Positions 7,480 through 20,047 of a stretch of 20,047 nucleotides of DNA are shown in pieces. The notes below the pieces were generated by a model. That model saw only the letters and a list, made by a program, of their open reading frames with translations. It ran no database searches and was not told the DNA's origin. Made by a program: the position numbers and the translations under genes. The stretch is from positions 1 to 20,047 of the IMG/VR virus record IMGVR_UViG_3300044638_003436; one strand, written 5' to 3'. The DNA comes from a virus. Every line of letters starts with the position of its first letter. Within the stretch, counting starts at the first letter, position 1.

Positions 7480-7890
7480 ATGAGCGCAGTTGACGAGGAT
7501 ATTTTTCAAGGTTTAGGTGTAGAAATAAAGCTAAAGTCCGAACAGGACTTTCTGAAGGTTAAGGAAACATTAACCCGTATAGGCGTTTCTTCGAAACAAG
7601 AAAAGAAGCTTTATCAATCATGTCACATTTTGCACAAGAGAGGAAGATATGCAATCATGCACTTCAAGGAGATGTTTGTTCTTGATGGTCTTGATAGCAA
7701 TATGGATAGCAATGATCTTGGCAGAAGAAACATTATAGTAAAGTTGCTAAAAGAATGGGGATTAATAGATCCAATTAATGAGAATAAATATAAGGAACCT
7801 CAATTGGGGTTAAACCAAATTAAAATAATTCCTCATTCAGAAAAGAAAAATTGGCAGCTTATTCAAAAGTATCATATTGGTAAAAAATAA
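7480..7890 (+). CDS. regA: RegA translational repressor
   Basis: A 136-aa homologue of T4 RegA (122 aa), an RNA-binding protein that blocks ribosome access to many early phage mRNAs. Residues from EIKLKSEQDFLKVKETLTRI through KKLYQSCHILHKRG, YAIMHFKEMFVLDG and LLKEWGLIDP align closely with the T4 protein, and the end WQLIQKYHIGKK matches its KYTIG ending. About ten N-terminal residues (MSAVDEDIFQ) are extra, and a short insertion precedes LGRRNIIVK. The start chosen is the ATG at 7480, which has GGAG in front. In T4 the polymerase gene follows; here the glycan island starts on the last base of the stop codon. Confidence 0.95.
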   Translation: MSAVDEDIFQGLGVEIKLKSEQDFLKVKETLTRIGVSSKQEKKLYQSCHILHKRGRYAIMHFKEMFVLDGLDSNMDSNDLGRRNIIVKLLKEWGLIDPINENKYKEPQLGLNQIKIIPHSEKKNWQLIQKYHIGKK

Positions 7891-8198
7891 TGTATATTTA
7901 CAATGAAGATTTTATTCCTCTTGATATAAGAGATTATGTTTACAACTTTTTACAAGTGAGAAGCTTAAATAAACCTGTAGAAGTATTTTGGGGTAATGGT
8001 ATTGGTGATGCTGTATTTTTATACCCAAAAGAAAAAACAAGAATTAATTTAGCTTTTATAGATGATGAAAGAATGACAAAATTTGCTGTAGATAATATAG
8101 CAGAAATTGAATCTAGGTTTGATTACATCTTGACTAACAGCGAATATTTGCTAGAATATTCTAATAAATTTATTAATTATGAAAATAGATCTTCGTGA
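7890..8198 (+). CDS. Unrecognised 102-aa protein, possibly an N-terminal remnant of a glycosyltransferase
   Basis: The start ATG shares a base with the regA stop (TAATG). The product contains VEVFWGNGIGDAVFLYP and then FDYILTNSEYLLEYSNKFIN. That last element resembles FDHIVTCHKKFNFLSNAIII of the GT10 protein encoded at 9569, where it is the end of the N-terminal half. Here the chain stops right after it, at the point where the catalytic half would begin. The next gene overlaps by 20 bases. I read it as either a complete small protein of unknown function or a truncated enzyme whose 3' part was replaced. The codons are very AT-rich, like the rest of the island. No catalytic motif is present. 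Confidence 0.5.
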   Translation: MYIYNEDFIPLDIRDYVYNFLQVRSLNKPVEVFWGNGIGDAVFLYPKEKTRINLAFIDDERMTKFAVDNIAEIESRFDYILTNSEYLLEYSNKFINYENRSS

Positions 8199-8805
8199 AA
8201 TACCAGTATACTGGATTAATTTAGACTCTGCCATAAAAAATGCAGAAAGAATGACTAAGATGTTTGAGAAGCTAGGCTTCAAGAACACCGTTAGGAAGTC
8301 TGCTAGAGTAATACCAGCACCGCCAGATACGATTCCAAGTAATAAGCATTATGTCGGTTGTGCTCAATCGCATATTGACATATTTGAAATTGCAGATCTC
8401 AAGACACCATTTTTAATTCTTGAAGATGATGTTGAAGTCATTGAAGAAAATTTTAATCCTGTATTGGAAATTCCAGACGAAACAGCTGCTTTATATTTGG
8501 GAATAAGCACAGGTAATATGTTTTATAATTGCATTAAATACAATGAAAATTATAAAAGAATAGCTGGTATTTTGGCAACACATGCTATTTTATATACAAG
8601 TCAACGGTATAGAGAAGAAGTAAAAAATATGTCAAAAGATCTTGTGTATAATAGACGCACTCCGTTTGATATTGGTTGTGCGTATTTGCAGAAATTTTTT
8701 CAAGTATTGACACCAAATAAACCAGTATTTTATCAGGCAGATTTGGCAGAAAGTTCAAACAAGTGGGAACATTTGACAAAATGCGAATTGGAGGTAAAAG
8801 GATGA
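8179..8805 (+). CDS. GT25-like glycosyltransferase (first copy)
   Basis: A 208-aa protein with the pattern of family 25 (LPS galactosyltransferase / collagen galactosyltransferase type) enzymes. VYWINLDSAIKNAERM at residues 10-25 is the typical opening. VGCAQSHIDIFE at about 59-70 matches the 'GC..SH' signature. FLILEDDVEV at 78-87 supplies the acidic sugar-nucleotide site. A catalytic partner acidic residue may be in RRTPFDIG. The usual donor in the family is UDP-galactose, but it cannot be read from sequence. It overlaps the preceding frame by 20 bases and ends with an ATGA overlap on the GT11 gene. It is shorter than many members (about 240-260 aa). Confidence 0.75.
   Translation: MKIDLREIPVYWINLDSAIKNAERMTKMFEKLGFKNTVRKSARVIPAPPDTIPSNKHYVGCAQSHIDIFEIADLKTPFLILEDDVEVIEENFNPVLEIPDETAALYLGISTGNMFYNCIKYNENYKRIAGILATHAILYTSQRYREEVKNMSKDLVYNRRTPFDIGCAYLQKFFQVLTPNKPVFYQADLAESSNKWEHLTKCELEVKG
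8790..8795 (+). promoter_or_regulatory. Strong Shine-Dalgarno deciding the GT11 start
   Basis: GGAGGT is a full anti-SD match six bases before the ATG at 8802. In-frame ATGs at 8763 and 8781 lie before this site and are therefore unlikely starts. It is the only strong ribosome-binding site within the AT-rich island. Confidence 0.65.
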
Positions 8806-9572
8806 TTACTTTTAAAAATTTAGGAAATATGGGAAGATTGGGCAATCAAATGTTTCAATTTGCTTTCATATACAATGTAGCTAAACATAAAAATTTAGAA
8901 ATAGGTTATGATTATATTCATAAACCATTAATAACAAAAATTTTTGATCTTCCGTTAAAAGATTCTACTCAAATAGCACAAAAAAATACTCTAGTACAAC
9001 TTAATGATTGTGCTTATATTGATACTTCTACTATAGAAGATAATACCGATTGTTATGGGTATTTTCAAAATAGTAAATATGTTTATGATATAGAATATGA
9101 ATTAAAAAATTTATTTGTTTTTAAAAAAGACATGATGGATGTTTGTTTTAAATTTATAAAAGAACTTAAAGATAAAGTAAAAAAAGAATTAGTATCTGTT
9201 CATGTAAGAAGAAGTGATTATTTATTACCAAATTCCATCCATACAGTTTGTGATGATAATTACTTTAAAAAAGCAATGGATAAATTTGGAAATGATTATT
9301 TTTATGTTATTTTTACAGACGATAAAGAATTTTGTAAAAATAAGTTTAAAAATATACCAAATATAATAATGGATAATTCACCTGAAGTTGATTTAGCTCT
9401 TATGTCGCTATGTGATCATAATATACTTTCAAATAGCTCTTATTCGTGGTGGGGATCGTGGTTGAATGAAAATTTAAATAAAAAAGTTATTGTACCTAAT
9501 AGATGGTATAATAATAATGGTGGACCAAAAAATTGGGAAAAAATATACCGCAGTGATATGGTTCTCTTATGA
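8802..9572 (+). CDS. GT11 family fucosyltransferase (alpha-1,2 type)
   Basis: A 256-aa enzyme of glycosyltransferase family 11, which transfers fucose from GDP-fucose, usually to galactose O-2. GRLGNQMFQFAF at residues 11-22 is the family's opening motif. HVRRSDY at 134-140 is the HxRRxD/Y GDP-fucose-binding motif. IFTDDKEF and the C-terminal block LMSLCDHNILSNSSYSWWG, followed by PNRWY and WEKIY, complete the set. The length is somewhat below H. pylori FutC (about 300 aa). There is no signal peptide or membrane segment, so it acts in the cytoplasm. It overlaps the GT25 stop (ATGA) and the following GT10 start. No GDP-fucose synthesis genes are in the window, so the donor must come from the host or from phage genes elsewhere. 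Confidence 0.9.
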   Translation: MITFKNLGNMGRLGNQMFQFAFIYNVAKHKNLEIGYDYIHKPLITKIFDLPLKDSTQIAQKNTLVQLNDCAYIDTSTIEDNTDCYGYFQNSKYVYDIEYELKNLFVFKKDMMDVCFKFIKELKDKVKKELVSVHVRRSDYLLPNSIHTVCDDNYFKKAMDKFGNDYFYVIFTDDKEFCKNKFKNIPNIIMDNSPEVDLALMSLCDHNILSNSSYSWWGSWLNENLNKKVIVPNRWYNNNGGPKNWEKIYRSDMVLL

Positions 9573-10372
9573 TTAAAATTTATATTGTAGAATCTTTAAT
9601 AGATTCAATAACTTGGAAAAATTTTAAATTTATTGGTAATAAATTTATTAAAGTTGATAACATGGAAGAAGCAGATTGTTATCTATTTGTAGATAATAAC
9701 AAAATAATAAAAGATTCTACTAAGAAAAAAATATTATATTTTTCGGAACCATACGGAATTATTCCTTCATGTTATGAACTATTAAATGATATAAATTATA
9801 CTAAAAAATTTGATCATATTGTAACTTGTCATAAAAAATTTAATTTTTTATCAAATGCTATTATAATTCCACCGAATGCAGGAACATCTTTATCTAAAAA
9901 TTGTTTCACCACAAATAAAACAAAATTAGCTTCAATGATTTTTTCTGAAAAAAACTATTCAGAAGGACATAAATTAAGACACCGTTTAAAAATATTGATA
10001 AAGCCCGGTACAATAGATGGTTATGGTAAATTATTTAATAATCCAATTAAAAATAAAGAAGACGGATTAGTAAATTATTGTTTTAATTTTGCAATAGAAA
10101 ATTGTAGAGAATCTGGTTATTACACAGAAAAAATAAATGATTGTATGCTATCTGGAACAATACCAATATATTGGGGAGATCCAGATATAGCCAATATATA
10201 TGATTCAAGAGGAATCATTGATATAGCAGAAATAGACAATTTAAGTTTTTCTTTATACGAAAGTAAAAAAGAATATATTTTTAAAAATTATGAAATTGCA
10301 CAAAAAATTGTAAAACAAAATACTGTAGAAAATTGCATAGACTCATTTTTAAATAAAATTTATTATGGTTAA
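9569..10372 (+). CDS. GT10 family fucosyltransferase (alpha-1,3/4 type)
   Basis: A 267-aa protein with the hallmark GT10 donor-binding block: CFNFAIENCRESGYYTEKIN (171-190), then DCMLSGTIPIYWGDPDI (191-207). The family usually reads 'FxLAFENS...GYVTEK..DAL..G.IPIYWG.P'. The N-terminal half (LYFSEPYG, FDHIVTCHKKF) corresponds to the acceptor-binding domain. Bacterial members such as H. pylori FutA add fucose to GlcNAc in LacNAc chains; mimivirus and phage members act on unknown acceptors. It starts on the last four bases of the GT11 gene (ATGA) and overlaps the next gene by eight bases, so the two fucosyltransferase genes are physically and probably functionally linked. It is short relative to vertebrate enzymes and has no membrane anchor. 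Confidence 0.9.
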   Translation: MIKIYIVESLIDSITWKNFKFIGNKFIKVDNMEEADCYLFVDNNKIIKDSTKKKILYFSEPYGIIPSCYELLNDINYTKKFDHIVTCHKKFNFLSNAIIIPPNAGTSLSKNCFTTNKTKLASMIFSEKNYSEGHKLRHRLKILIKPGTIDGYGKLFNNPIKNKEDGLVNYCFNFAIENCRESGYYTEKINDCMLSGTIPIYWGDPDIANIYDSRGIIDIAEIDNLSFSLYESKKEYIFKNYEIAQKIVKQNTVENCIDSFLNKIYYG

Positions 10373-11126
10373 TACTACATTTATAATACCAATAAAAATA
10401 GATTCTGATATCAGATATAATAATATACACAATTGTATTAAATTTTTATTAGAAAATACCAATGGTAATATAATAATAACAGAATCTGATAATGATCAAA
10501 AATTAAAAATACAATCTTCTGCTAGATTGGAATATTATTTTATAAAAAATAATACAAATTATTTTTATAGAACAAAATTATTAAATCAAATGTTAAATTG
10601 CGTCTTAACGCCCATAACAGTAAATTATGATGCTGATGTTTTTTTATTACCAGAAACATATAAATTGGCAGAAAGAGAAATATTAGAAAATAAAGTTGAT
10701 TTATATTATCCTTTTGGTCTTCAAAAAATGCATCAAATCAGATTGTATCCAGAAAGAGATGATGTAATAGAATTTAAAAAAGACTTTAATTTTTCTAAAT
10801 TAAAAGTAAACCAGAGCGATTATCATTGGACGATGTATGGTCATTGTCAATTTTTTAATACGGAATCTTATAGGAAAGGTTTTATGGAAAACGAAAACTA
10901 TGTTGACTGGGGACCAGAAGATGCGGAAAGAGCTATAAGATTTCAAAAATTAGGATATAATGTAAAATGGGGAAATAATTTAGTATTTCACCAAGAACAT
11001 CCACCATCAATTAGAAAAAAATTATACGAACATAATGTTTTATATCATGAAAAACTTATAAATATGACGAAAGAAGAATTGTTAAATTACTATAACAATG
11101 AAGAATATTGGAAAAAATACAAATGA
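10365..11126 (+). CDS. GT-A glycosyltransferase with galactosyltransferase-like C-terminus
   Basis: A 253-aa GT-A-fold protein. The N-terminus (TTFIIPIKIDSDIRYNNI) is GT2-like. VNYDADVFLLP, with DAD at about 89-91, is the metal-binding motif. GHCQFFNTESYRKGFMENE and DWGPEDAERAIRFQKLGYNVKW (split here) reproduce the C-terminal domain seen in beta-1,4-galactosyltransferases and chondroitin-type polymerases (G-x-x-x-F ... G-W-G-x-E-D-x-x). WGPED at 181-185 would hold the catalytic acidic residue. A hexose or N-acetylhexosamine donor is likely, but specificity is not readable. It starts eight bases inside the GT10 gene without a clear ribosome-binding site, so translation is probably coupled. Confidence 0.75.
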   Translation: MVNTTFIIPIKIDSDIRYNNIHNCIKFLLENTNGNIIITESDNDQKLKIQSSARLEYYFIKNNTNYFYRTKLLNQMLNCVLTPITVNYDADVFLLPETYKLAEREILENKVDLYYPFGLQKMHQIRLYPERDDVIEFKKDFNFSKLKVNQSDYHWTMYGHCQFFNTESYRKGFMENENYVDWGPEDAERAIRFQKLGYNVKWGNNLVFHQEHPPSIRKKLYEHNVLYHEKLINMTKEELLNYYNNEEYWKKYK

Positions 11127-11857
11127 ATCATTATTTAAAATACGCTAAAAATATTTTTAGTCAAAACGGCGAAGATGGAATAATAGAATATTTATTAAAT
11201 TTGCTAGAAATTAAGGAAGGTATATTATGTGAATTTGGATCTTGGGACGGAATTTACTTGAGCAATACAGCAAATTTGTTTATTTTTAATAAAAATTATA
11301 AAGCAATTTTAATTGAAGCTGATACGCAAAAATATGAAGAATCTAAAAATATTTTTAAAAATTTTGATACAGTAGAAATATTTAATTGTAAAATAGATTC
11401 TAATTCAAATAGTCCAAACAGTATAAACAACATATTAAAAAGATCAAAATTTGAAATTAATAATGATAATTTTGTTTTAATATCTATAGATGTAGATTCT
11501 ATTGATTATCATATTTTTGAATCTTTAACAGAGTATAATCCAAAAATTGTAATCGTAGAAACAAATTCTTCTTATACTGAAGAAGTCGTATCAATTGGAG
11601 GATCTTCTTTAAAAAGTCTAACTAAATTAGCAAATAGAAAAAATTATACTCTAATTTGTAGTACTGGAAATGCTTTTTTTATCAGAAATGATTTAATATC
11701 TAAACTTCCTATTATAGATGACAATATTACTATGAATCAAGATGGAGTAGACCAATTAACAAAAATAAATTCAAATGGTATAAAAATCGACAACCTATAT
11801 TTTTTAACTAAAGAATATAATGATTTTTTAAATAAAATAAAACGTGATTTATCATGA
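11123..11857 (+). CDS. FkbM-family methyltransferase
   Basis: A 244-aa SAM-dependent methyltransferase of the FkbM (Methyltransf_21) type, enzymes that usually O-methylate sugar hydroxyls. FSQNGEDGIIEYLL at 12-25 is a typical opening. LCEFGSWDGIYLSNT at 35-49 is the glycine-rich SAM loop. AILIEADTQKYEE at 61-73 carries the acidic residue for the ribose. VLISIDVDSIDYHIFE at 118-133 and IVIVETN complete the core. The ATG at 11123 forms an ATGA overlap with the previous stop; an in-frame TTG at 11108 is an alternative. A tightly packed position among glycosyltransferases suggests that it caps or decorates the glycan. Confidence 0.82.
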   Translation: MNHYLKYAKNIFSQNGEDGIIEYLLNLLEIKEGILCEFGSWDGIYLSNTANLFIFNKNYKAILIEADTQKYEESKNIFKNFDTVEIFNCKIDSNSNSPNSINNILKRSKFEINNDNFVLISIDVDSIDYHIFESLTEYNPKIVIVETNSSYTEEVVSIGGSSLKSLTKLANRKNYTLICSTGNAFFIRNDLISKLPIIDDNITMNQDGVDQLTKINSNGIKIDNLYFLTKEYNDFLNKIKRDLS

Positions 11858-12657
11858 TGCATAGTATAATATTGACAGTACATAATAAAGATTTTTTATT
11901 AGAAAAGGTATTGAATGGTATTAAAGAAAATACTTTAGGCTTGTATGAATTAAATATTATTCTTGATGGATGTACTGACAATTCAGAAAAAATTGTAGAG
12001 CAAAATAAACAAAAATTTGATAAAATTAACATTTATTATGCTAATAATATTTTTGAAACAAAAGCAAACAATATAGGTCTTAAAAATAGTTCTGGAGAGT
12101 ACTGTACAATAGTTCAAGATGATATGATCATAAAAGAATATGGTTGGAACGAAAGAATGTTAAAACCATTTCAGTTCAGCGATGTATTTGCTGTAACATC
12201 AAGAACTGCTCATAATTGGGAATTTAATCCAAAAACTAAACATTTATATCTCAAAGAAAATTTAGATAATTGTTGGTGTGATATTTTGAATCATGTAGAT
12301 CATGCTAACTGCCAGAATACGCCTAGGAATGTTTTTGCAATAAGAAGTTCTGTTAATAGAGGACCACTTATGCTTAAGCACGAAGATATTAATTCTTTAA
12401 ATTATTTAGATGAAAATTTTGCTCCACAAGATATGGACGACCACGATCTTTGTTATAGAGCTAAAACAAAATTAGGAAAAGTATGTGGATGTTATTGGAT
12501 AGATTATGAATCCAAAGATTCTTGGGGTGGAACCAGAATCAATGGATCCACAGCTCCTTGGTTATTACAGGCTAATCACAAAAATACAAAATTATTTTTA
12601 AGTAACCATAAAGAATTAATAATAAAATATAGGATAAAAGAAGAAAGAATTCTATGA
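11854..12657 (+). CDS. GT2 family glycosyltransferase
   Basis: A 267-aa inverting GT-A transferase of family 2 type. SIILTVHNKDFLLEKVL at residues 4-20 and LNIILDGCTDNSEKIV are the nucleotide-binding start. TKANNIGLKNSSGEYCTIVQDDM at about 69-91 (split in function: N-x-G-L and the QDD metal site at 88-90) is typical. LDENFAPQDMDDHDLCYRAK supplies the 'ED' catalytic-base region. ATGATG at 11854 allows either of two adjacent starts. The product may extend or branch the glycan; donor unknown. It overlaps both neighbours by four bases, in the same coupled layout as the rest of the island. Confidence 0.85.
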   Translation: MMHSIILTVHNKDFLLEKVLNGIKENTLGLYELNIILDGCTDNSEKIVEQNKQKFDKINIYYANNIFETKANNIGLKNSSGEYCTIVQDDMIIKEYGWNERMLKPFQFSDVFAVTSRTAHNWEFNPKTKHLYLKENLDNCWCDILNHVDHANCQNTPRNVFAIRSSVNRGPLMLKHEDINSLNYLDENFAPQDMDDHDLCYRAKTKLGKVCGCYWIDYESKDSWGGTRINGSTAPWLLQANHKNTKLFLSNHKELIIKYRIKEERIL

Positions 12658-13355
12658 AAATAATAGATATTCCAACATTTATTATCCATAATAAAGGCTG
12701 TAATGAAAGAGCTAAAAATATATACGAACAAATAAAAAAAAATGTTTTTAAAAAAATAAATATTTTTGATGCAATAGTCCCAGGTACTTTAAAAAATTAT
12801 AAAAAATATTATAATAAATATAAATCTGATTATTATAATTATGAACCAAAAAATAATGAAGAATTATATGATGTTAAAAATTTATGCCTAATGATGTCGC
12901 ATTTAGAAATAGTTAAACATGCAAATAAGAAAAAATATAATAATGTTTTAATTTTTGAAAATGATTTTAATATTAAAGATCCAGATTCTATAAAAAAAAT
13001 ATTCGTAGATTTTAATTTTGATTTTCTCCACATTGGAGGATATTATATGGAAGATTGGCTAATTCCCTATAAATCAAATATAAGTAAAATTAAAGAATGT
13101 AATGGATCTTTTGCTTATATTGTAAATAAAAATTTTTACAAAAATTATATTAATATTATAGAAAATAATTTTTGTAATAAAGTTGGTTTAAATGGAGTAG
13201 ATGGATTTTTTGCAAGAAAATTTTACGAAACAAATAACTGTTTTGCTTTTATACCTCCACTAATTAATACAATTCCGTCGCAATCGACTCTAAGAGAAAA
13301 ATCTTATACAGATCATTACAGTTATTTCAATAAATTATCAACTAAAAATATTTAA
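12654..13355 (+). CDS. GT25-like glycosyltransferase (second copy)
   Basis: A 233-aa protein that appears related in layout to the gene at 8179. It opens with PTFIIHNKGCNERAKNIYEQ (the 'IN-L-x-R' element is degenerate here). MMSHLEIVKHA at about 80-90 contains the SH signature, and NNVLIFENDFNI at 96-107 has the acidic cluster. The C-terminal part (GSFAYIVNKNFYKNYI, VDGFFARKF) matches the acceptor region in which family 25 proteins have 'G..AY.....A'. Sequence similarity to the first copy is low, so it is not a recent duplication. The composition is extreme: 10 G or C in the 60 bases at 12721-12780 by hand count. The product is very rich in Asn and Lys as a result. Confidence 0.68.
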   Translation: MKIIDIPTFIIHNKGCNERAKNIYEQIKKNVFKKINIFDAIVPGTLKNYKKYYNKYKSDYYNYEPKNNEELYDVKNLCLMMSHLEIVKHANKKKYNNVLIFENDFNIKDPDSIKKIFVDFNFDFLHIGGYYMEDWLIPYKSNISKIKECNGSFAYIVNKNFYKNYINIIENNFCNKVGLNGVDGFFARKFYETNNCFAFIPPLINTIPSQSTLREKSYTDHYSYFNKLSTKNI

Positions 13356-13365
13356 TACAAATAAA

Positions 13366-13995
13366 ATGAATTTTTTAAATTTTTATAAATCTGAAATTTA
13401 CCAAAAACTTTTAATTCCAGGTCATCCAAAAAATCCTATAAGAAATAGAGCAGATTCTTTTCTTAAAGTATTTGAAATATTATGTTCTAATAGTAATAAT
13501 AAGGATTATTTTTTAGTAGAAACTGGTTGTATGAGAGCGGATCATGGAACTATAGCTTTTGGTGATGATGGAGCTAGCACTTTTATCTTTGATAAATTTA
13601 TCCAATCAGTAAATGGAAAATTTTATTCTGTGGATATTTCTCAGAATAATGTGGATCATGCCAAAAAATTTGTAAGCGACAAAACAAAAATATTTTGTTC
13701 GGATTCTGTAAAATTTTTATGGAATATACCACAAGAAATTAAGATAGATTTTTTATATCTAGATTCTTATGATATAGAAAAAAATAATCCACACCCATCT
13801 CAATTGCATCATTTAAAAGAACTATGTGCAGCTACTAAAAATTTAAAATCAGGTTCTATAGTTTTAGTAGATGATCATGATGCTTTTTTTACTCAAGGAA
13901 AAATAGGAAAAGGAACTTATGTTAAAGAATTTATGGAATCTATCGGAGCAGAAAAATTATTTGAAAGTTATCAGATAGGATGGTTAATCAAATGA
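13366..13995 (+). CDS. Class I SAM-dependent methyltransferase
   Basis: A 209-aa protein of the Methyltransf_24-like group. FLVETGCMRADHGTIAFGDD at residues 49-68 is the SAM-binding glycine/acid loop. GKFYSVDISQNN at 84-95 supplies the acidic residue after the second strand. DFLYLDSYD and SIVLVDDHDAFF are the later metal/acceptor-side strands, as in catechol O-methyltransferase-like sugar methylases. The N-terminus (YQKLLIPGHPKNPIRNRADS) is a family-type lead-in. It lies ten bases after the previous stop with no visible ribosome-binding site. A sugar or glycan acceptor is inferred from context only. Confidence 0.78.
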   Translation: MNFLNFYKSEIYQKLLIPGHPKNPIRNRADSFLKVFEILCSNSNNKDYFLVETGCMRADHGTIAFGDDGASTFIFDKFIQSVNGKFYSVDISQNNVDHAKKFVSDKTKIFCSDSVKFLWNIPQEIKIDFLYLDSYDIEKNNPHPSQLHHLKELCAATKNLKSGSIVLVDDHDAFFTQGKIGKGTYVKEFMESIGAEKLFESYQIGWLIK

Positions 13996-14816
13996 AAAAT
14001 TGTATAGTTTATTTGGTAAATCATAGAGAACAAGAAATAAAAGATTTTTTAAAAAGTTTATTATTATTAGAAAAACATTTTTTAAAAACACATGCCGTAG
14101 ACGTTATTGTTTTTCATGAAAAAGAATTTAATATTCATATAGAAAATATAAAAAATATTTTTCCAAACATATTATTTAAATTCCAAGAATTAAATTTTAC
14201 TTTAGATTACAGTAAAGAAATTTTAAATAAAATACCAGAATATTTTCCACATCCTACACATGGAAATGGCCCGATAGCATGGGGGCATCCAGGATTTACA
14301 ATTGGTTATAGGCATATGTGTAATTTTTTTGCCGGAGAAATTTATAATCAAAAAATATTAGAAAATTATGATTACTATATGCGTCTTGATACTGACTCCT
14401 TTATATTAAGAGAAGTTCAAGAAAATATTTTTGATAAAATGAAAAAATTAAATTCTTTTTATGGCTTTATTGGAGAAGCGATTCAGTTAGATAATCCAAA
14501 AGTTACCATTGGTTTATATAATTTTATTAAAAATTATATAGAAACTAATAAAATAGAAACTTTAACTACTATTTCGAATATAAAAGAAAATGGTATGTTT
14601 TATAATAATTTTGAAATTGGTAAAATATCTTGGTTTAAAGAATCAAAATATATGCAATTTTATGAAGAAATTAAAAAATTTGGAGGAATCTACACCAATA
14701 GATGGGGCGATGCTCCTATAAGATATTTAATACTAAATCTAATAATGCCTCAAAAAAATTTCCTAAATATAACTGAAATTGCATATCAACATGGAGCAAT
14801 TTATAATTTAAAATGA
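13992..14816 (+). CDS. GT15-like alpha-1,2-mannosyltransferase (Kre2/Mnt1 type)
   Basis: A 274-aa protein with the unmistakable arrangement of fungal GT15 enzymes, which add alpha-1,2-mannose from GDP-mannose. GYRHMCNFFAGEIYN at 105-119 corresponds to the 'SYRHMCRF.SG' motif. YDYYMRLDTDSFI at 126-138 corresponds to 'YDYYWRVEPDV'. MFYNNFEIGKISWFKE at 202-217 matches 'YN.CHFWSNFEIG', whose glutamate is the proposed catalytic residue in yeast Kre2. GGIYTNRWGDAPIRYL at 231-246 matches 'GGFYYERWGDAPVHS'. IAYQHGAIYN closes the chain. The yeast enzymes have an N-terminal membrane anchor and stem; this protein lacks both and is only the catalytic domain. The start at 13992 gives an ATGA overlap; the ATG at 13980 is an alternative. 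Confidence 0.82.
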   Translation: MKNCIVYLVNHREQEIKDFLKSLLLLEKHFLKTHAVDVIVFHEKEFNIHIENIKNIFPNILFKFQELNFTLDYSKEILNKIPEYFPHPTHGNGPIAWGHPGFTIGYRHMCNFFAGEIYNQKILENYDYYMRLDTDSFILREVQENIFDKMKKLNSFYGFIGEAIQLDNPKVTIGLYNFIKNYIETNKIETLTTISNIKENGMFYNNFEIGKISWFKESKYMQFYEEIKKFGGIYTNRWGDAPIRYLILNLIMPQKNFLNITEIAYQHGAIYNLK

Positions 14817-14839
14817 AAAAAAATTTACTTAATTAAAAT

Positions 14840-15529
14840 ATGAACAATTTTCACCTTTTAATGTTTTCTGATAAACTGTATGAAAAATTTAAAAATGATA
14901 CAGTTAAAGATTTGGCAAAATTTAAAATTTTTAACGATTTTCATATTTTTAATGAAATCGATTTATATAAAACAAAATTTTATTCAAAAAATAAACACAT
15001 TTTAGATCAAAAAAAAGGTTTTGGATATTGTTTATGGAAACCTTATTATATTTTAGAAATTTTAAATTTAATACCTGAAAATGAAACTTTAATCTATATG
15101 GATAGTGCTGATATTATTTTTAATCCGCCTCTGTTTATAGATTGCGTAACCGATGCAATAAATTCGCAAGATGCAATGTTTATTGGTGGTGGTTTTAAGC
15201 AAAGTCAATATACAAAGTATGATTGCTTTTATAAAATGAATTGTTTAGATGAAAAATATAGAAATCAAATTCAATTAGAAGCAGGAGTAGTTGCTTTTAA
15301 AAATACATCTAAAAATAAAGAATTTGTTAATAAATGGTTAGAATTTTGCAAAGATGAAAATATTGTAACTGATATGCCAAATGTTTATGGGAATAATTTT
15401 CCAGAGTTTATCGATCATAGATACGATCAGAGTGTACTAACAAATCTTTTTGTAGATTTTGATTGTAAAGAATTCGAAATGGGTTCTCCAATAAGAAATA
15501 CTTTTGCGTGTAATCACTTTAAGATATAA
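14840..15529 (+). CDS. Putative GT-A-like glycosyltransferase of an uncharacterised family
   Basis: A 229-aa protein that I do not assign to a numbered family. KKGFGYCLWKPYYILEIL at residues 58-75 and ETLIYMDSADIIFNPP at 82-97 follow a pattern recurrent in bacterial and viral polysaccharide proteins ('G-x-G-Y-x-x-W-K-P ... L-x-Y-x-D-x-G'). IYMDSAD is a DXD-like metal site. QLEAGVVAFKNTSKNKEFVNKW and EFIDHRYDQSVLTNL (a histidine-aspartate-glutamine motif) complete the same pattern. It is 23 bases downstream of the GT15 gene with an A/T-only leader and no ribosome-binding site. A sugar transferase role is likely from motif and neighbourhood; donor and acceptor are unknown. Confidence 0.65.
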   Translation: MNNFHLLMFSDKLYEKFKNDTVKDLAKFKIFNDFHIFNEIDLYKTKFYSKNKHILDQKKGFGYCLWKPYYILEILNLIPENETLIYMDSADIIFNPPLFIDCVTDAINSQDAMFIGGGFKQSQYTKYDCFYKMNCLDEKYRNQIQLEAGVVAFKNTSKNKEFVNKWLEFCKDENIVTDMPNVYGNNFPEFIDHRYDQSVLTNLFVDFDCKEFEMGSPIRNTFACNHFKI

Positions 15530-15535
15530 AATAAA

Positions 15536-16429
15536 ATGAAATACTTAGTAACTGGCGGTTGTGGATTTATTGGTTCTAATTTGGTTGATCGTCTTATAGC
15601 AGACGGCCACGAAGTAAATGTAATTGATAATCTTTCATCAGATGCTCATAACGAATTTTACTTCAATAAAAAAGCAAAATATAATCATCACTGCGTAACT
15701 GATTATGTCATGACAAGTGACATGTATAATCATGTTGATGTAGTGTTTCATCTGGCAGCAGAGGCGAGAATACAGAATTGCATAGAAGATCCTCTCAAGG
15801 CAATAGAAGTCAATGTTCTTGGCACGGGAACGGTTCTTCAGTTAGCACGAAAACACCGAGTAAAAAAAGTTCTTCTTTCGTCAACTTCCGCAATTTATGG
15901 TAATAGTGGAAAGAGCAATGAAGCAGCTCCACCAGATTGTCTAAATGCGTATTCTGTAACTAAACAAAATGCGGAAGAATTATGCAAATTGTATTCCAAA
16001 ATGCATGGTCTGGAAACACACATTTTTAGATATTTCAATGTCTTTGGAGAACGGCAACCAGTAAAGGGACAATATGCACCTGTAATTGGTATCTTTGGAA
16101 GACAGAAGGCAGCTGGAGAACCACTTACAATTGTCGGTGACGGAGAACAAAGAAGGGATTTTGTTCATGTTTCTGATGTGGTTGAAGCAAACATTCTTTT
16201 AGCCAACCACGATTATGGTGATACCAAGTTACTAACTAGAACATTAAATGTTGGAACCGGAAAAAATTATTCGGTAAACGAAATAGCAAAAATGGTTGGT
16301 GGACCAACCAAGTATTTGCCCCCAAGAGAGGGAGAAGCTAAATCAACTTTAGCAAATGTAGAACAAATAAACCATCTAGGATGGAAGCCAAAGATAGATG
16401 TGGAAATTTGGATCAAGAATAACACTTGA
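15536..16429 (+). CDS. NAD-dependent UDP-sugar 4-epimerase (GalE/WbpP-like)
   Basis: A 297-aa extended short-chain dehydrogenase. GGCGFIG at residues 7-13 is the NAD-binding loop, and VIDNLSS follows the second strand with its ribose-binding aspartate. FHLAAEARIQNCIEDP is the AA-x-x-x-V-type helix. SSTSAIYG with YSVTK (Y139, K143) forms the catalytic triad, and FRYFNVFGERQ and GDGEQRRDFVHVSDV bind the UDP-sugar. This set fits UDP-glucose or UDP-GlcNAc 4-epimerases, giving UDP-Gal or UDP-GalNAc. The chain is about 40 residues shorter than typical GalE. Base composition returns toward the core average, unlike the genes before it. It may supply donors for the galactosyl-type transferases upstream. 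Confidence 0.85.
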   Translation: MKYLVTGGCGFIGSNLVDRLIADGHEVNVIDNLSSDAHNEFYFNKKAKYNHHCVTDYVMTSDMYNHVDVVFHLAAEARIQNCIEDPLKAIEVNVLGTGTVLQLARKHRVKKVLLSSTSAIYGNSGKSNEAAPPDCLNAYSVTKQNAEELCKLYSKMHGLETHIFRYFNVFGERQPVKGQYAPVIGIFGRQKAAGEPLTIVGDGEQRRDFVHVSDVVEANILLANHDYGDTKLLTRTLNVGTGKNYSVNEIAKMVGGPTKYLPPREGEAKSTLANVEQINHLGWKPKIDVEIWIKNNT

Positions 16430-16462: not shown

Positions 16463-17680
16463 ATGAAACCAACAATTACACTATGCATGATCGTGAAGAA
16501 TGAAACTCACGTTATTCTTCGCTGTTTAGAATCTCTTTATAAGTATATCGACCGTTACGACATCACAGATACTGGTTCTACTGATGGGACTCAGGATATG
16601 ATTCGTAAGTTCTTTGCTGAGAAGAATATTCCAGGAGAAATTTATCAATCTGACTGGAAGGGATTCGGTAATCATGGTACGACCATTGGTTCTCGTACAG
16701 AGGCATTCCAGAATGCCAAAGGCAAGGCAGACTATGCTTGGGTCATAGACGCAGATGACTTCCTACACGGCGAATTGGTGCTACCAGAAAATGCAAGTGC
16801 AGATGCTTATACCTTGCAGTTCAAGAGAGGTGAATTTTCTTGGTGGAGAACACAGCTATTCAAGAACGATAGGGATTGGAAATACGTCGGAATTCTTCAC
16901 GAATATCCAGACTCTGAACCAAAGCCATACAAGATAGAAAAGCTATCTGGGAACTATTGCATAGAAGCTAGAACAGAAGGTGCAAGAAACGTAGGTATCG
17001 ATCCGAAGGAAAAGTATGCCAGAGATGCAGAAGTTCTAGAAAAGGCAATTTTAGAAGATCCGACAAATACAAGATATCATTTTTATCTTGCACAAAGCTA
17101 TTTTGATTCTTTCCAATTTGAAAAAGCTCTTGAGGCGTATAGAAAGAGATCTGAACTTGGTGGTTGGGAAGAAGAGATATTTTTCTCTATCTACAGAATG
17201 GCAATTTGTAAGGTCTTCCTACAACATCCTTGGAATGAAATCTATGACATGTTCATGAGATCATACGAAGCAAGACCAACAAGAGCAGAGCCACTGTATC
17301 AATTAGCAAGACTCTGTAGAATGAATGACAGGCCAAAGGCAGCATACATTTATGCGCGCATGGCATTGGAAATTCCAAGACCAGTAATGGACGATTTATT
17401 CGTAGAAGAAATTCCATACTCATGGGGCATTCTTGATGAATTGGGTGCAGTTGCCCACTCAGTAGGAAAATTCCACTTGGGAATGCAAATTTGCCATAAG
17501 CTTCTTTGCGAAAATAAATTTCCAGAAGAACATAGACAAAGAATTCAAAATAACTTCAATTCTTACAAGCAGATTGTAGCAAAGATTCAAGATGAAAGAG
17601 CTATAGCTGAAATGGTAGAGAAGCAAAAAGAAAAGGAAAAAAAGAAGATAAATAAAAAGAAGAAGAAAGCTAGAATATGA
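16463..17680 (+). CDS. GT2 glycosyltransferase fused to a TPR region
   Basis: A 405-aa protein. The N-terminal 180 residues are a GT2 domain: TITLCMIVKNETHVILRCLES (split at the N-E motif), ITDTGSTDGTQD, then VIDADDF with DADD at 96-99, and a WRTQLFKND ... GILHEYP segment typical of this subgroup. Residues about 185-330 form tetratricopeptide-like helices (TRYHFYLAQSYFDSFQFEKALEAYRKR is split over one repeat, and AEPLYQLARLCR another), which usually bind protein partners. The last 30 residues are a Lys/Glu helix ending INKKKKKARI. This GT2-TPR form is frequent in marine T4-like phages as I recall; its substrate is unknown. The TPR suggests a protein acceptor (inference). The stop overlaps the next ATG. 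Confidence 0.87.
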   Translation: MKPTITLCMIVKNETHVILRCLESLYKYIDRYDITDTGSTDGTQDMIRKFFAEKNIPGEIYQSDWKGFGNHGTTIGSRTEAFQNAKGKADYAWVIDADDFLHGELVLPENASADAYTLQFKRGEFSWWRTQLFKNDRDWKYVGILHEYPDSEPKPYKIEKLSGNYCIEARTEGARNVGIDPKEKYARDAEVLEKAILEDPTNTRYHFYLAQSYFDSFQFEKALEAYRKRSELGGWEEEIFFSIYRMAICKVFLQHPWNEIYDMFMRSYEARPTRAEPLYQLARLCRMNDRPKAAYIYARMALEIPRPVMDDLFVEEIPYSWGILDELGAVAHSVGKFHLGMQICHKLLCENKFPEEHRQRIQNNFNSYKQIVAKIQDERAIAEMVEKQKEKEKKKINKKKKKARI

Positions 17681-18230: not shown

Positions 18231-20047
18231 ATGAAAAATAGTTTTGCGCCTGGAACAAAAATAGTATTAAAAAACAATATACAGGACCTTAAAAAGGGTT
18301 CTGTATATGAATGCGTTCCTACACAATGGTACGAAAAAGAATATAAATTAGGCGGATCAAAGAATTATTTTCTAAAAGATGAAACTGGAGAAATATTGCT
18401 TATCAAAAGCAATGACAGTTTGATTACAGAAAATTTTCAAACACTCCCAAAGATACAACAAAAATTTACTATTATACCATCAAAGTCTGCTCCTCTCAAT
18501 ATTTTTGAGGAACCAGAAACTGTAATAGAAGCTGCACCTAGTGTTGGATCTCCTGGAATGCAGGGTCCAGCGGGTCCAAGGGGGTTGCAGGGAATAAGAG
18601 GGGATCCAGGATCCGATGGTCTTCCAGGATCCGATGGCAAGGACGGTAAGGACGGCGAACCAGGTTCAATGGGTCCCGCTGGTCCAGTAGGTCCAGCTGG
18701 GCCAATGGGTCCCCGTGGAGTGCAAGGAGATAAGGGAGAACCTGGTTCTGCTGGCCCTAAAGGACCAAAGGGACCTAAAGGGGACAAGGGAGATAAAGGA
18801 GATGCAGGAGAACCAGGACCACAAGGCCCACAGGGGCTTAAAGGCGATGATGGTTTAGCTGGAGAAATAGGACCACAAGGCCCACAGGGGGATGTTGGTC
18901 CAGAGGGTCCACAAGGTCCTAGAGGACCACAAGGGTCGCAAGGAATACAAGGAGAACAGGGTCCTGAAGGATTGCAGGGTCCTAAAGGCGATAAGGGTGA
19001 TCAAGGAGACACTGGCCTTTTATCTGCTTCTTATCCTTTAGTTTATGATAAAAACAAAAAAAGCATTTCTGTCGATATAAAATTATTTGACGAAAAAATC
19101 TCAAAACTTACTTCAGATCCTCTTTTTGCCAGCGGAGGTAGCGGTTTAGGTGTAAGAAGTAAAGGAAGTATAGTAGTTAGAACTGGTGTGGGCGTAATAG
19201 ATTTCGGTGACAATCTAAATGTAACCAGAATAGGTTCTAATGTAAGAGTTGATGCTGTTGGTGGAGGAGGATCGGTTTCACAAGCGGTATTGACTGCAAA
19301 TGGATTTACTGGTGGAGTAACCTGGTCAGCAGGCTCTGGAATAGGTGTAACTTATTCTAACAATACTATAACCTATTCTAATACTGGAGTCCTATCAATT
19401 GCCGGAACAGACGGAATAACAGTTTCTCCATCAGGCGGAACTGGTAATGTTACTGTTTCTATTGATTCTGGTTATAAGTTATTAAGATCATTTCCCAATG
19501 TAACAGCTTTACAAGCATCTCCGAATCCAGAAGATGGTGATTTAGCCTGGGTTGTCAATAGCGGTGATGGTAATGGTGCATATTATTATTATACAACTGC
19601 AACTAATCCAGATGCTTGGGTAAAAATAACTTTATTGACAAATGGATTACTTGGAGATGTAAATTTAGATGGAACCGTAAATGGTGCAGATCTTGCCGTT
19701 CTTCTTGCTAATTGGGGATTGCTTGGCCAATCACCGGAATTACGTTTTGGTATTTCTGACGGAATAACAAACGCATTTAAAATTTTTGCTTATGGTTTTA
19801 CTGCTGGTAAAAAGTCTGATATACTTCAAATAGCAACTGAAAATGCTCTATCGACTGTAAACATCAATTCTTCAACTTTAGATATTGATGCTTTTACTAG
19901 CATAAGCGGAAATGGTTCTATTTCTCTTGAGCTTACGAATGGTGGATTACAATTTCCTGACGGAAGTATACAAAATTATGCTTGTATTTTCACCGAGGGT
20001 TTAACCGCACCAGCATCTTCAAACCCAGGTGATAGATGGTACAACAC
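18231..20047 (+). CDS. Collagen-like phage fibre protein, 3' end outside window
   Basis: An open frame of 605 codons to the window edge. Residues 1-105 are a non-repetitive head ([29 protein letters not shown]), possibly for attachment. Residues 106-264 are 53 perfect Gly-X-Y triplets, a collagen-like triple helix rich in GPQ, GPK, GDK and GEP, with charged KGD/KGE contacts that stabilise helices lacking hydroxyproline. After it come beta-rich Gly/Ser/Thr segments, a module with [17 protein letters not shown] and [16 protein letters not shown], a dockerin-like loop at 474-496, and a further segment ending in [13 protein letters not shown] and [13 protein letters not shown], a fibre motif. AGGTGA (18222-18227) precedes the ATG. 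Collagen-like repeats occur in many phage tail fibres; the receptor is unknown. Confidence 0.85.
18546..19022 (+). repeat. 53 Gly-X-Y codon triplets
   Basis: Every ninth base starts a glycine codon without interruption. Nine triplets have Lys in the Y position (for example GPK three times in a row, then GDK twice) and two have Lys in X. A 22-base exact direct repeat lies within it, at 18815-18836 and 18869-18890, spaced by six triplets, showing recent internal duplication or slippage. Confidence 0.95.
19650..19718 (+). other. Dockerin-like EF-hand loop within the fibre gene
   Basis: These codons encode [20 protein letters not shown] followed by ANWG. The loop [12 protein letters not shown] satisfies the dockerin calcium pattern DxNxDGxxNxxD at every ligand position, and the [11 protein letters not shown] helix has the form common in bacterial dockerin-type repeats. 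Only one repeat is present, whereas cellulosomal dockerins have two. Confidence 0.75.

Follow-up and report, generated by a model that had tools for sequence, protein, structure and literature searches.

Two overlapping genes of the fucosyltransferase families GT11 and GT10 in a phage genome raise the question of whether both enzymes act on the same glycan and, if so, what this glycan is and where it would be attached. The genes are located on a 20-kb IMG/VR fragment (IMGVR_UViG_3300044638_003436, 20,047 nt), which was analyzed over its full length and is referred to as the window. In humans, the H and Lewis blood-group antigens receive their fucose from enzymes of these two families, GT11 members carrying out alpha-1,2 fucosyl transfer from GDP-fucose and GT10 members alpha-1,3/4 fucosyl transfer. 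In the Lewis system of Helicobacter pylori, the GT10 enzymes FutA/B and the GT11 enzyme FutC work on one glycan, and a sequence-only reading of the window had proposed that the phage pair could similarly form a difucosylated LacNAc-like structure. The window stems from a T4-like phage, as it carries part of uvsW and the genes for a gp55-like sigma factor, gp47, gp46, gp45, gp44, RegA and a gene at the gp62 position. Its gp46 is about 44% identical to cyanophage gp46, and psbA was absent from nine related records (78 kb at most), a result that has no bearing either way on a cyanobacterial host. Rfam and tRNA searches of the window gave no match.

The pair lies within a glycan island (positions 8179–15529) that is AT-rich, with a G+C content of 22–31% vs. 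30–44% elsewhere in the window, and whose sugar genes are tightly packed and for the most part overlapping (Table 1). The GT25 gene at the left edge, GT25a, is 79–83% identical to the copies in the related loci L004–L008, with an EDD motif retained, and GT25 identity over the relatives as a whole spans 50–83%; a PDB search by sequence found no solved relative. The gene directly following the pair (the GT-A gene) had been described as galactosyltransferase-like. It is 26% identical (2e-24) to a gene of cyanophage Sf-FS3 annotated as ‘galactosyltransferase C-terminal domain’, and its predicted structure is nearest to the heparosan and chondroitin enzymes given in Table 1; GT7 beta-4-galactosyltransferases were absent among the matches listed for the model. 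A role as hexosyltransferase is plausible. GT15, to which another island gene is related, is the family of the yeast KRE2/MNT alpha-mannosyltransferases. The UDP-sugar 4-epimerase named earlier corresponds to the SDR protein, which is nearest to UDP-glucose 4-epimerases and 96–97% identical in L004 and L008. The tail-fibre gene further downstream reaches only 47–51% identity to relatives whose core identity is about 97%. It also bears a dockerin-like motif.

Table 1. Genes of the glycan island and its right flank, and viral loci encoding GT2-GT11-GT10 fusions.
Feature	Record	Position	Strand	Evidence and remarks
GT25 family gene (GT25a)	window	8179–8805	+	PF01755 5e-6, above cut-off; left edge of island
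GT11 family (alpha-1,2-fucosyltransferase family) gene	window	8802–9572	+	256 aa; PF01531 E 2e-27; PHROG 2644 E 2e-57
GT10 family (alpha-1,3/4-fucosyltransferase family) gene	window	9569–10372	+	267 aa; PF00852 E 2e-8
GT-A fold glycosyltransferase	window	10365–11126	+	weak PF00535; predicted structure closest to heparosan synthase 2 and K4 chondroitin polymerase
Island ORF	window	11108–11857	+	no family match; by eye like FkbM-type methyltransferase
GT2 glycosyltransferase	window	11854–12657	+	PF00535 8e-15
GT25-like gene, weak	window	12654–13355	+	PF01755 6e-4, 20.1 bits, below Pfam cut-off of 24
Methyltransferase-like gene	window	13366–13995	+	PF13578 0.001 (below cut-off); phrog_24975 4e-50
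GT15-like (alpha-mannosyltransferase family) gene	window	13980–14816	+	PF01793 4e-26
Island ORF	window	14840–15529	+	no Pfam or PHROG match
NDP-sugar 4-epimerase-like SDR	window	15536–16429	+	PDB 4zrm E 4e-49; right edge of variable part
GT2 + TPR protein	window	16463–17680	+	PF00535 7e-11; conserved right flank, 79–82% identical in relatives
Collagen-like tail-fibre gene	window	18231–20045	+	runs off window; PF01391 3e-26; PHROG tail fibre 1e-36
GT2-GT11-GT10 fusion	L122	8288–10684
GT2-GT11-GT10 fusion	L098	8300–10711
GT2-GT11-GT10 fusion	L112	7341–9707
GT2-GT11-GT10 fusion	L251	10001–12391
GT2-GT11-GT10 fusion	L252
GT2-GT11-GT10 fusion	L253	10001–12424
GT2-GT11-GT10 fusion	L254

The overlapping GT11 and GT10 genes at 8802–10372 could be confirmed with intact signatures, and the family matches together with the signatures place both predicted assignments far beyond chance. 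The ATG of the GT11 gene overlaps the stop of GT25a in ATGA style, and this start is consistent with the starts in five relatives. GT11 contains HVRRSDYL, including the HxRRxD motif, as well as FTDD and SNSSYSWWGSW; across the GT11 proteins of six phages, HVRR(S/T/G)D and SNSSYSWW are retained. It is 57–61% identical to the homologues in five relatives (L004–L008), in which the motifs are invariant. Compared to the nearest relative, L003, 23 synonymous and 8 nonsynonymous changes were counted (dS 0.21, dN 0.014, dN/dS about 0.07), a ratio indicating that GT11 is under purifying selection. A PDB search by sequence with the GT11 profile did not identify any solved relative.

GT10, which overlaps GT11 by an ATGA at 9569–9572, matches PF00852 with 34.7 bits (cut-off 23.9) and carries the signature IENCRESGYYTEK...TIPIYWGDP with the EN...YxTEK motif. 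It is 34–48% identical to the homologues in L004–L008. A single-protein query with GT10 found only one relative in viral contigs, and alignment-based queries found more. The closest solved sequence is H. pylori FucT (8e-18, or 5e-25 with a deeper profile). The predicted structure (pLDDT 94.7) has a GT-B fold, and its 11 best Foldseek matches are all fucosyltransferases of the GT10 family. Its closest fold is human FUT9 (Z 16.5, rmsd 3.6, 242 residues aligned), followed by 8d0w, FUT9 with H type 2; the best matches also include FucTs from plants and from H. pylori. For GT10, the earlier comparison with H. pylori thus held. R137, N178, Y184, E187 and K188 align to H. pylori R195, N240, Y246, E249 and K250, residues with known roles in the donor site (PMC7826918), and belong to 11 invariant residues that 16 phage GT10s have in common. 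E60 in the N-terminal domain is likewise invariant across these 16 proteins and may correspond to the catalytic base Glu95 of H. pylori FucT. In L022 (10338–12048), L025 (11913–13732) and L026 (11720–13347), divergent GT10 genes occur in tandem after GT11, which suggests two different GT10 steps.

The pair sits within a hypervariable glycan island yet persists. The gp44, gp45, gp46 and gp47 proteins of the relatives are 79–99% identical to those of the window, but most island genes of the window have no counterpart there and the neighbours of the pair are replaced; at the right border (epimerase and GT2-TPR protein), identity climbs again to 79–97% in L004, L008 and others. GT11 and GT10 are both present, mostly adjacent, in all nine relatives with a readable island (L004, L005, L006, L007, L008, L013, L022/L023, L024 and L025; L003 stops inside GT11). 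The 8.4-kb right halves of L005 and L006 share 94% nucleotide identity while the gene order at the left differs, a sign of recombination. In L007, genes for a GHMP kinase and a SIS isomerase and one more gene, resembling a heptose pathway, are located between GT25 and GT11 (7761–10014). An extra ORF, possibly a homing endonuclease, occurs between gp44 and gp62 in L006 (4426–5049) and L007 (5334–5867).

The association extends beyond these relatives. GT11 was found within 10 kb in 56 of 80 viral loci chosen by GT10 compared to 24 of 80 chosen by the epimerase (Fisher p 7e-7, an optimistic value as the compared loci are phylogenetically related), and in 41 of the 56 it lies within two ORFs of GT10. 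When only loci of at least 15 kb were considered, the counts were 44/55 and 16/37, respectively. Inside the epimerase-chosen set alone, the GT10-GT11 association was not significant (3/5 vs. 21/75, p 0.16). In seven viral contigs, GT2, GT11 and GT10 are encoded in one reading frame of 788–808 amino acids, one of which ends at the contig end (Table 1), and all three domains scored above the Pfam cut-offs in each of the three fusions scanned. No phage record in INPHARED matches the fusion over 80% of its length, and the 80 best bacterial genome loci, from a scan seeded on the GT2 part, contain separate genes only. The fusions are direct evidence for a connection between the activities and, together with the conserved pairing, provide strong indirect support for both enzymes acting on the same glycan. 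As the pair persists while sugar genes around it are swapped and is fused in other phages, it is very likely that GT11 and GT10 assemble a single fucosylated chain.

With moderate confidence, we favor as the best overall explanation that GT11 and GT10 are soluble fucosyltransferases acting one after the other in a single glycan pathway encoded by the phage. The families, the fold and donor-site residues of GT10, the conserved linkage, the fusion, the donor genes of relatives and the GT6-GT11 association are computational results, and from these we infer the substrates, linkages, order, acceptor and target of the pathway as follows. GT11 would add L-fucose from GDP-fucose to a terminal hexose, resulting in an H-type Fuc(a1-2)Hex end, and GT10 would then add a second fucose to the neighbouring sugar. 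The acceptor would be supplied by the GT25 gene upstream and/or the GT-A gene downstream of the pair, and GDP-fucose by the host or by phage genes beyond the window. The product would be a difucosylated H/Lewis-like end, which related phages may extend by a capping GT6 sugar, in analogy to ABO antigens. Transfer would take place in the cytoplasm, with a virion protein as a slightly likelier target than host envelope precursors; the first candidate carrier would be the adjacent collagen-like tail fibre.

With regard to the target, no membrane segments were predicted in 75 of the 76 island proteins scanned, the remaining protein containing one weak stretch, and no multi-pass protein was found. 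Flippase, polymerase, ligase or initiating phosphoglycosyltransferase genes were not present in any island variant among the 25 of 50 Pfam families displayed. As the island encodes no such export machinery, its gene content suggests that glycan assembly is probably cytosolic. The missing membrane proteins are nevertheless compatible with a remodelling of the host surface, since flippase and ligase could come from the host, whose lipid-linked O-antigen or LPS precursors would be fucosylated on the cytoplasmic face, leading to superinfection exclusion or receptor change. Cyanophage sugar genes have been placed under host cell-wall/LPS modification, the customary reading of such ‘LPS genes’ (PMC9602691), and the island adjoins early replication genes. 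As the lack of all four export functions among the displayed families and the divergent tail-fibre gene next to the island argue against it, we consider host remodelling a possible explanation, though with clearly less than an even chance. Direct glycosylation of the virion is slightly favored over the host-LPS reading; no literature on hypervariable glycosyltransferase islands of phages with virion glycosylation was found among open-access papers.

A narrower form of the favored pathway would follow H. pylori more closely, with LacNAc carrying a Lewis Y or ABO-Lewis Y determinant. The phage and H. pylori systems use the same two families with conserved GT10 donor-site residues, and no structures are nearer to the phage GT10 than FUT9 and H. 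pylori FucT; the phage enzyme is, however, shorter than that of H. pylori and is encoded in an island without export genes. In addition, two close relatives carry a GT6 gene (L005, 12259–12996; L006, 9078–9773) a short distance behind GT11, GT10 and the GT-A gene, although a Pfam scan found no GT6 match in the window. Both are closer to BoGT6a and the human ABO enzymes (GTA/GTB) than to alpha-galactosyltransferase. The L006 protein is nearest to BoGT6a, an A-antigen synthase (3e-45), with the WHDE motif kept, but carries DAD instead of the NXN found in most bacterial GT6 proteins; BoGT6a acts on 2'-fucosyl-lactose (PMC3961637). Within the epimerase-chosen control set, GT11 was present in 12 of 16 loci with GT6 vs. 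12 of 64 without (p 4e-5, likewise optimistic), as predicted by an H-then-A/B order. Many further phage contigs have GT6 adjacent or close to GT11, among them L040, L041 and, from the control set, L178, L183, L193, L196 and L198. Against a Lewis Y determinant, the island contains no demonstrated LacNAc-making enzyme, be it a beta-1,4-galactosyltransferase or one that transfers GlcNAc: the best matches of the GT-A gene are heparosan and chondroitin synthases, and sequence searches gave no solved relative for GT25. The determinant appears rather unlikely. GT25a, which was missing from the sequence-only reading, is as good a candidate for making the acceptor as the GT-A gene. Of the originally proposed difucosylated LacNAc-like glycan, the joint action of the two enzymes thus finds support in the nine relatives, the fusions, the GDP-fucose genes and GT6, whereas the LacNAc acceptor and the Lewis type amount to a guess.

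At the level of sequence comparison, fucosylation of one shared glycan is well supported, but members of both families are capable of using other acceptors, and the donor could be a different GDP-6-deoxysugar. As stated before, the window lacks a GDP-fucose source: its 20 kb contain no such gene, the SDR being closest to UDP-glucose 4-epimerases. No gmd above cut-off was found in the close relatives, which counts against the consecutive-fucosyltransferase explanation. The family membership of the pair leaves the donor unfixed, and DegT-like aminotransferases, possibly perosamine synthases, occur beside gmd in fusion loci and also in L008 and L013, so that GT10 and GT11 might use, e.g., GDP-perosamine, GDP-colitose or GDP-L-galactose from the same GDP-mannose route. 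However, the L013 island encodes a true GDP-L-fucose synthase (fcl; 1bws, 1e-88), in addition to NodZ-like and second GT11-like genes with weak matches near the cut-offs; gmd and fcl are adjacent beside a GT10 in the record of L035, and a single cluster of isolate S-SRM01 combines gmd, fcl, NodZ, GT10, two GT11 and GT25. A donor other than fucose is therefore quite unlikely. The fusions of L122 and L098 are closely accompanied by an fcl-like SDR and by a gmd that shares about 58% identity with the gmd of the L035 record. Finally, that the two genes merely co-occur through a common marine pool of sugar genes and act on different glycans, as the highly mosaic islands and the frequent presence of GT11 without GT10 (102 vs. 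20 phage records) might suggest, is very unlikely given their conserved overlap or near-adjacency, the same-polypeptide fusion and the enrichment over the control set.

The proposed consecutive action of GT11 and GT10 on one glycan can be compared with other viral systems. Clusters of GT10, GT11 and GT25 are already known from sequenced cyanophages, so that the sequence-only reading overstated the rarity of the pair. S-SRM01, S-SSM7, S-SM2, Sf-FS3 and S-SCSM2R combine GT10, at least one GT11, mostly GT25, and SDR genes in one cluster as in the window, but GT10 is mostly annotated as ‘putative transferase’ and the gene order differs, GT25, GT11 and GT10 directly overlapping near regA in the window. 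The multidomain glycosyltransferase A111/114R of chlorovirus PBCV-1 also ends with a 2NZW-like FucT domain, another domain being modelled on K4CP, and its proposed role is capsid glycosylation without the help of host organelles (PMC7826918). This protein of a eukaryotic virus consists of GalT-XylT-FucT domains without GT11, and its FucT lacks an equivalent of Glu-95, to which the invariant E60 of the phage GT10s may correspond. In the open-access papers searched, we found no report of a GT2-GT11-GT10 fusion, of such a pair persisting in a hypervariable island or of a GT6-GT11 association.

The locus might function as an interchangeable ‘serotype’ locus, in which a fixed GT25-GT11-GT10 module together with hypervariable sugar genes equips the tail fibre with H, Lewis and A/B-like glycans. 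Recombination between phages that are otherwise near-identical would vary these glycans, and in some phages the module would be condensed to a trifunctional GT2-GT11-GT10 enzyme; in this full form we regard the idea as unlikely. With the fused protein, a single recombinant enzyme suffices to test the question directly, and it might also serve as a compact tool for synthesizing fucosylated oligosaccharides. If phages do make H/Lewis/ABO-like glycans and these vary between near-identical genomes, the surfaces of virions or infected cells would differ in serotype much as bacterial capsules do, which would affect adsorption, grazing and competition.
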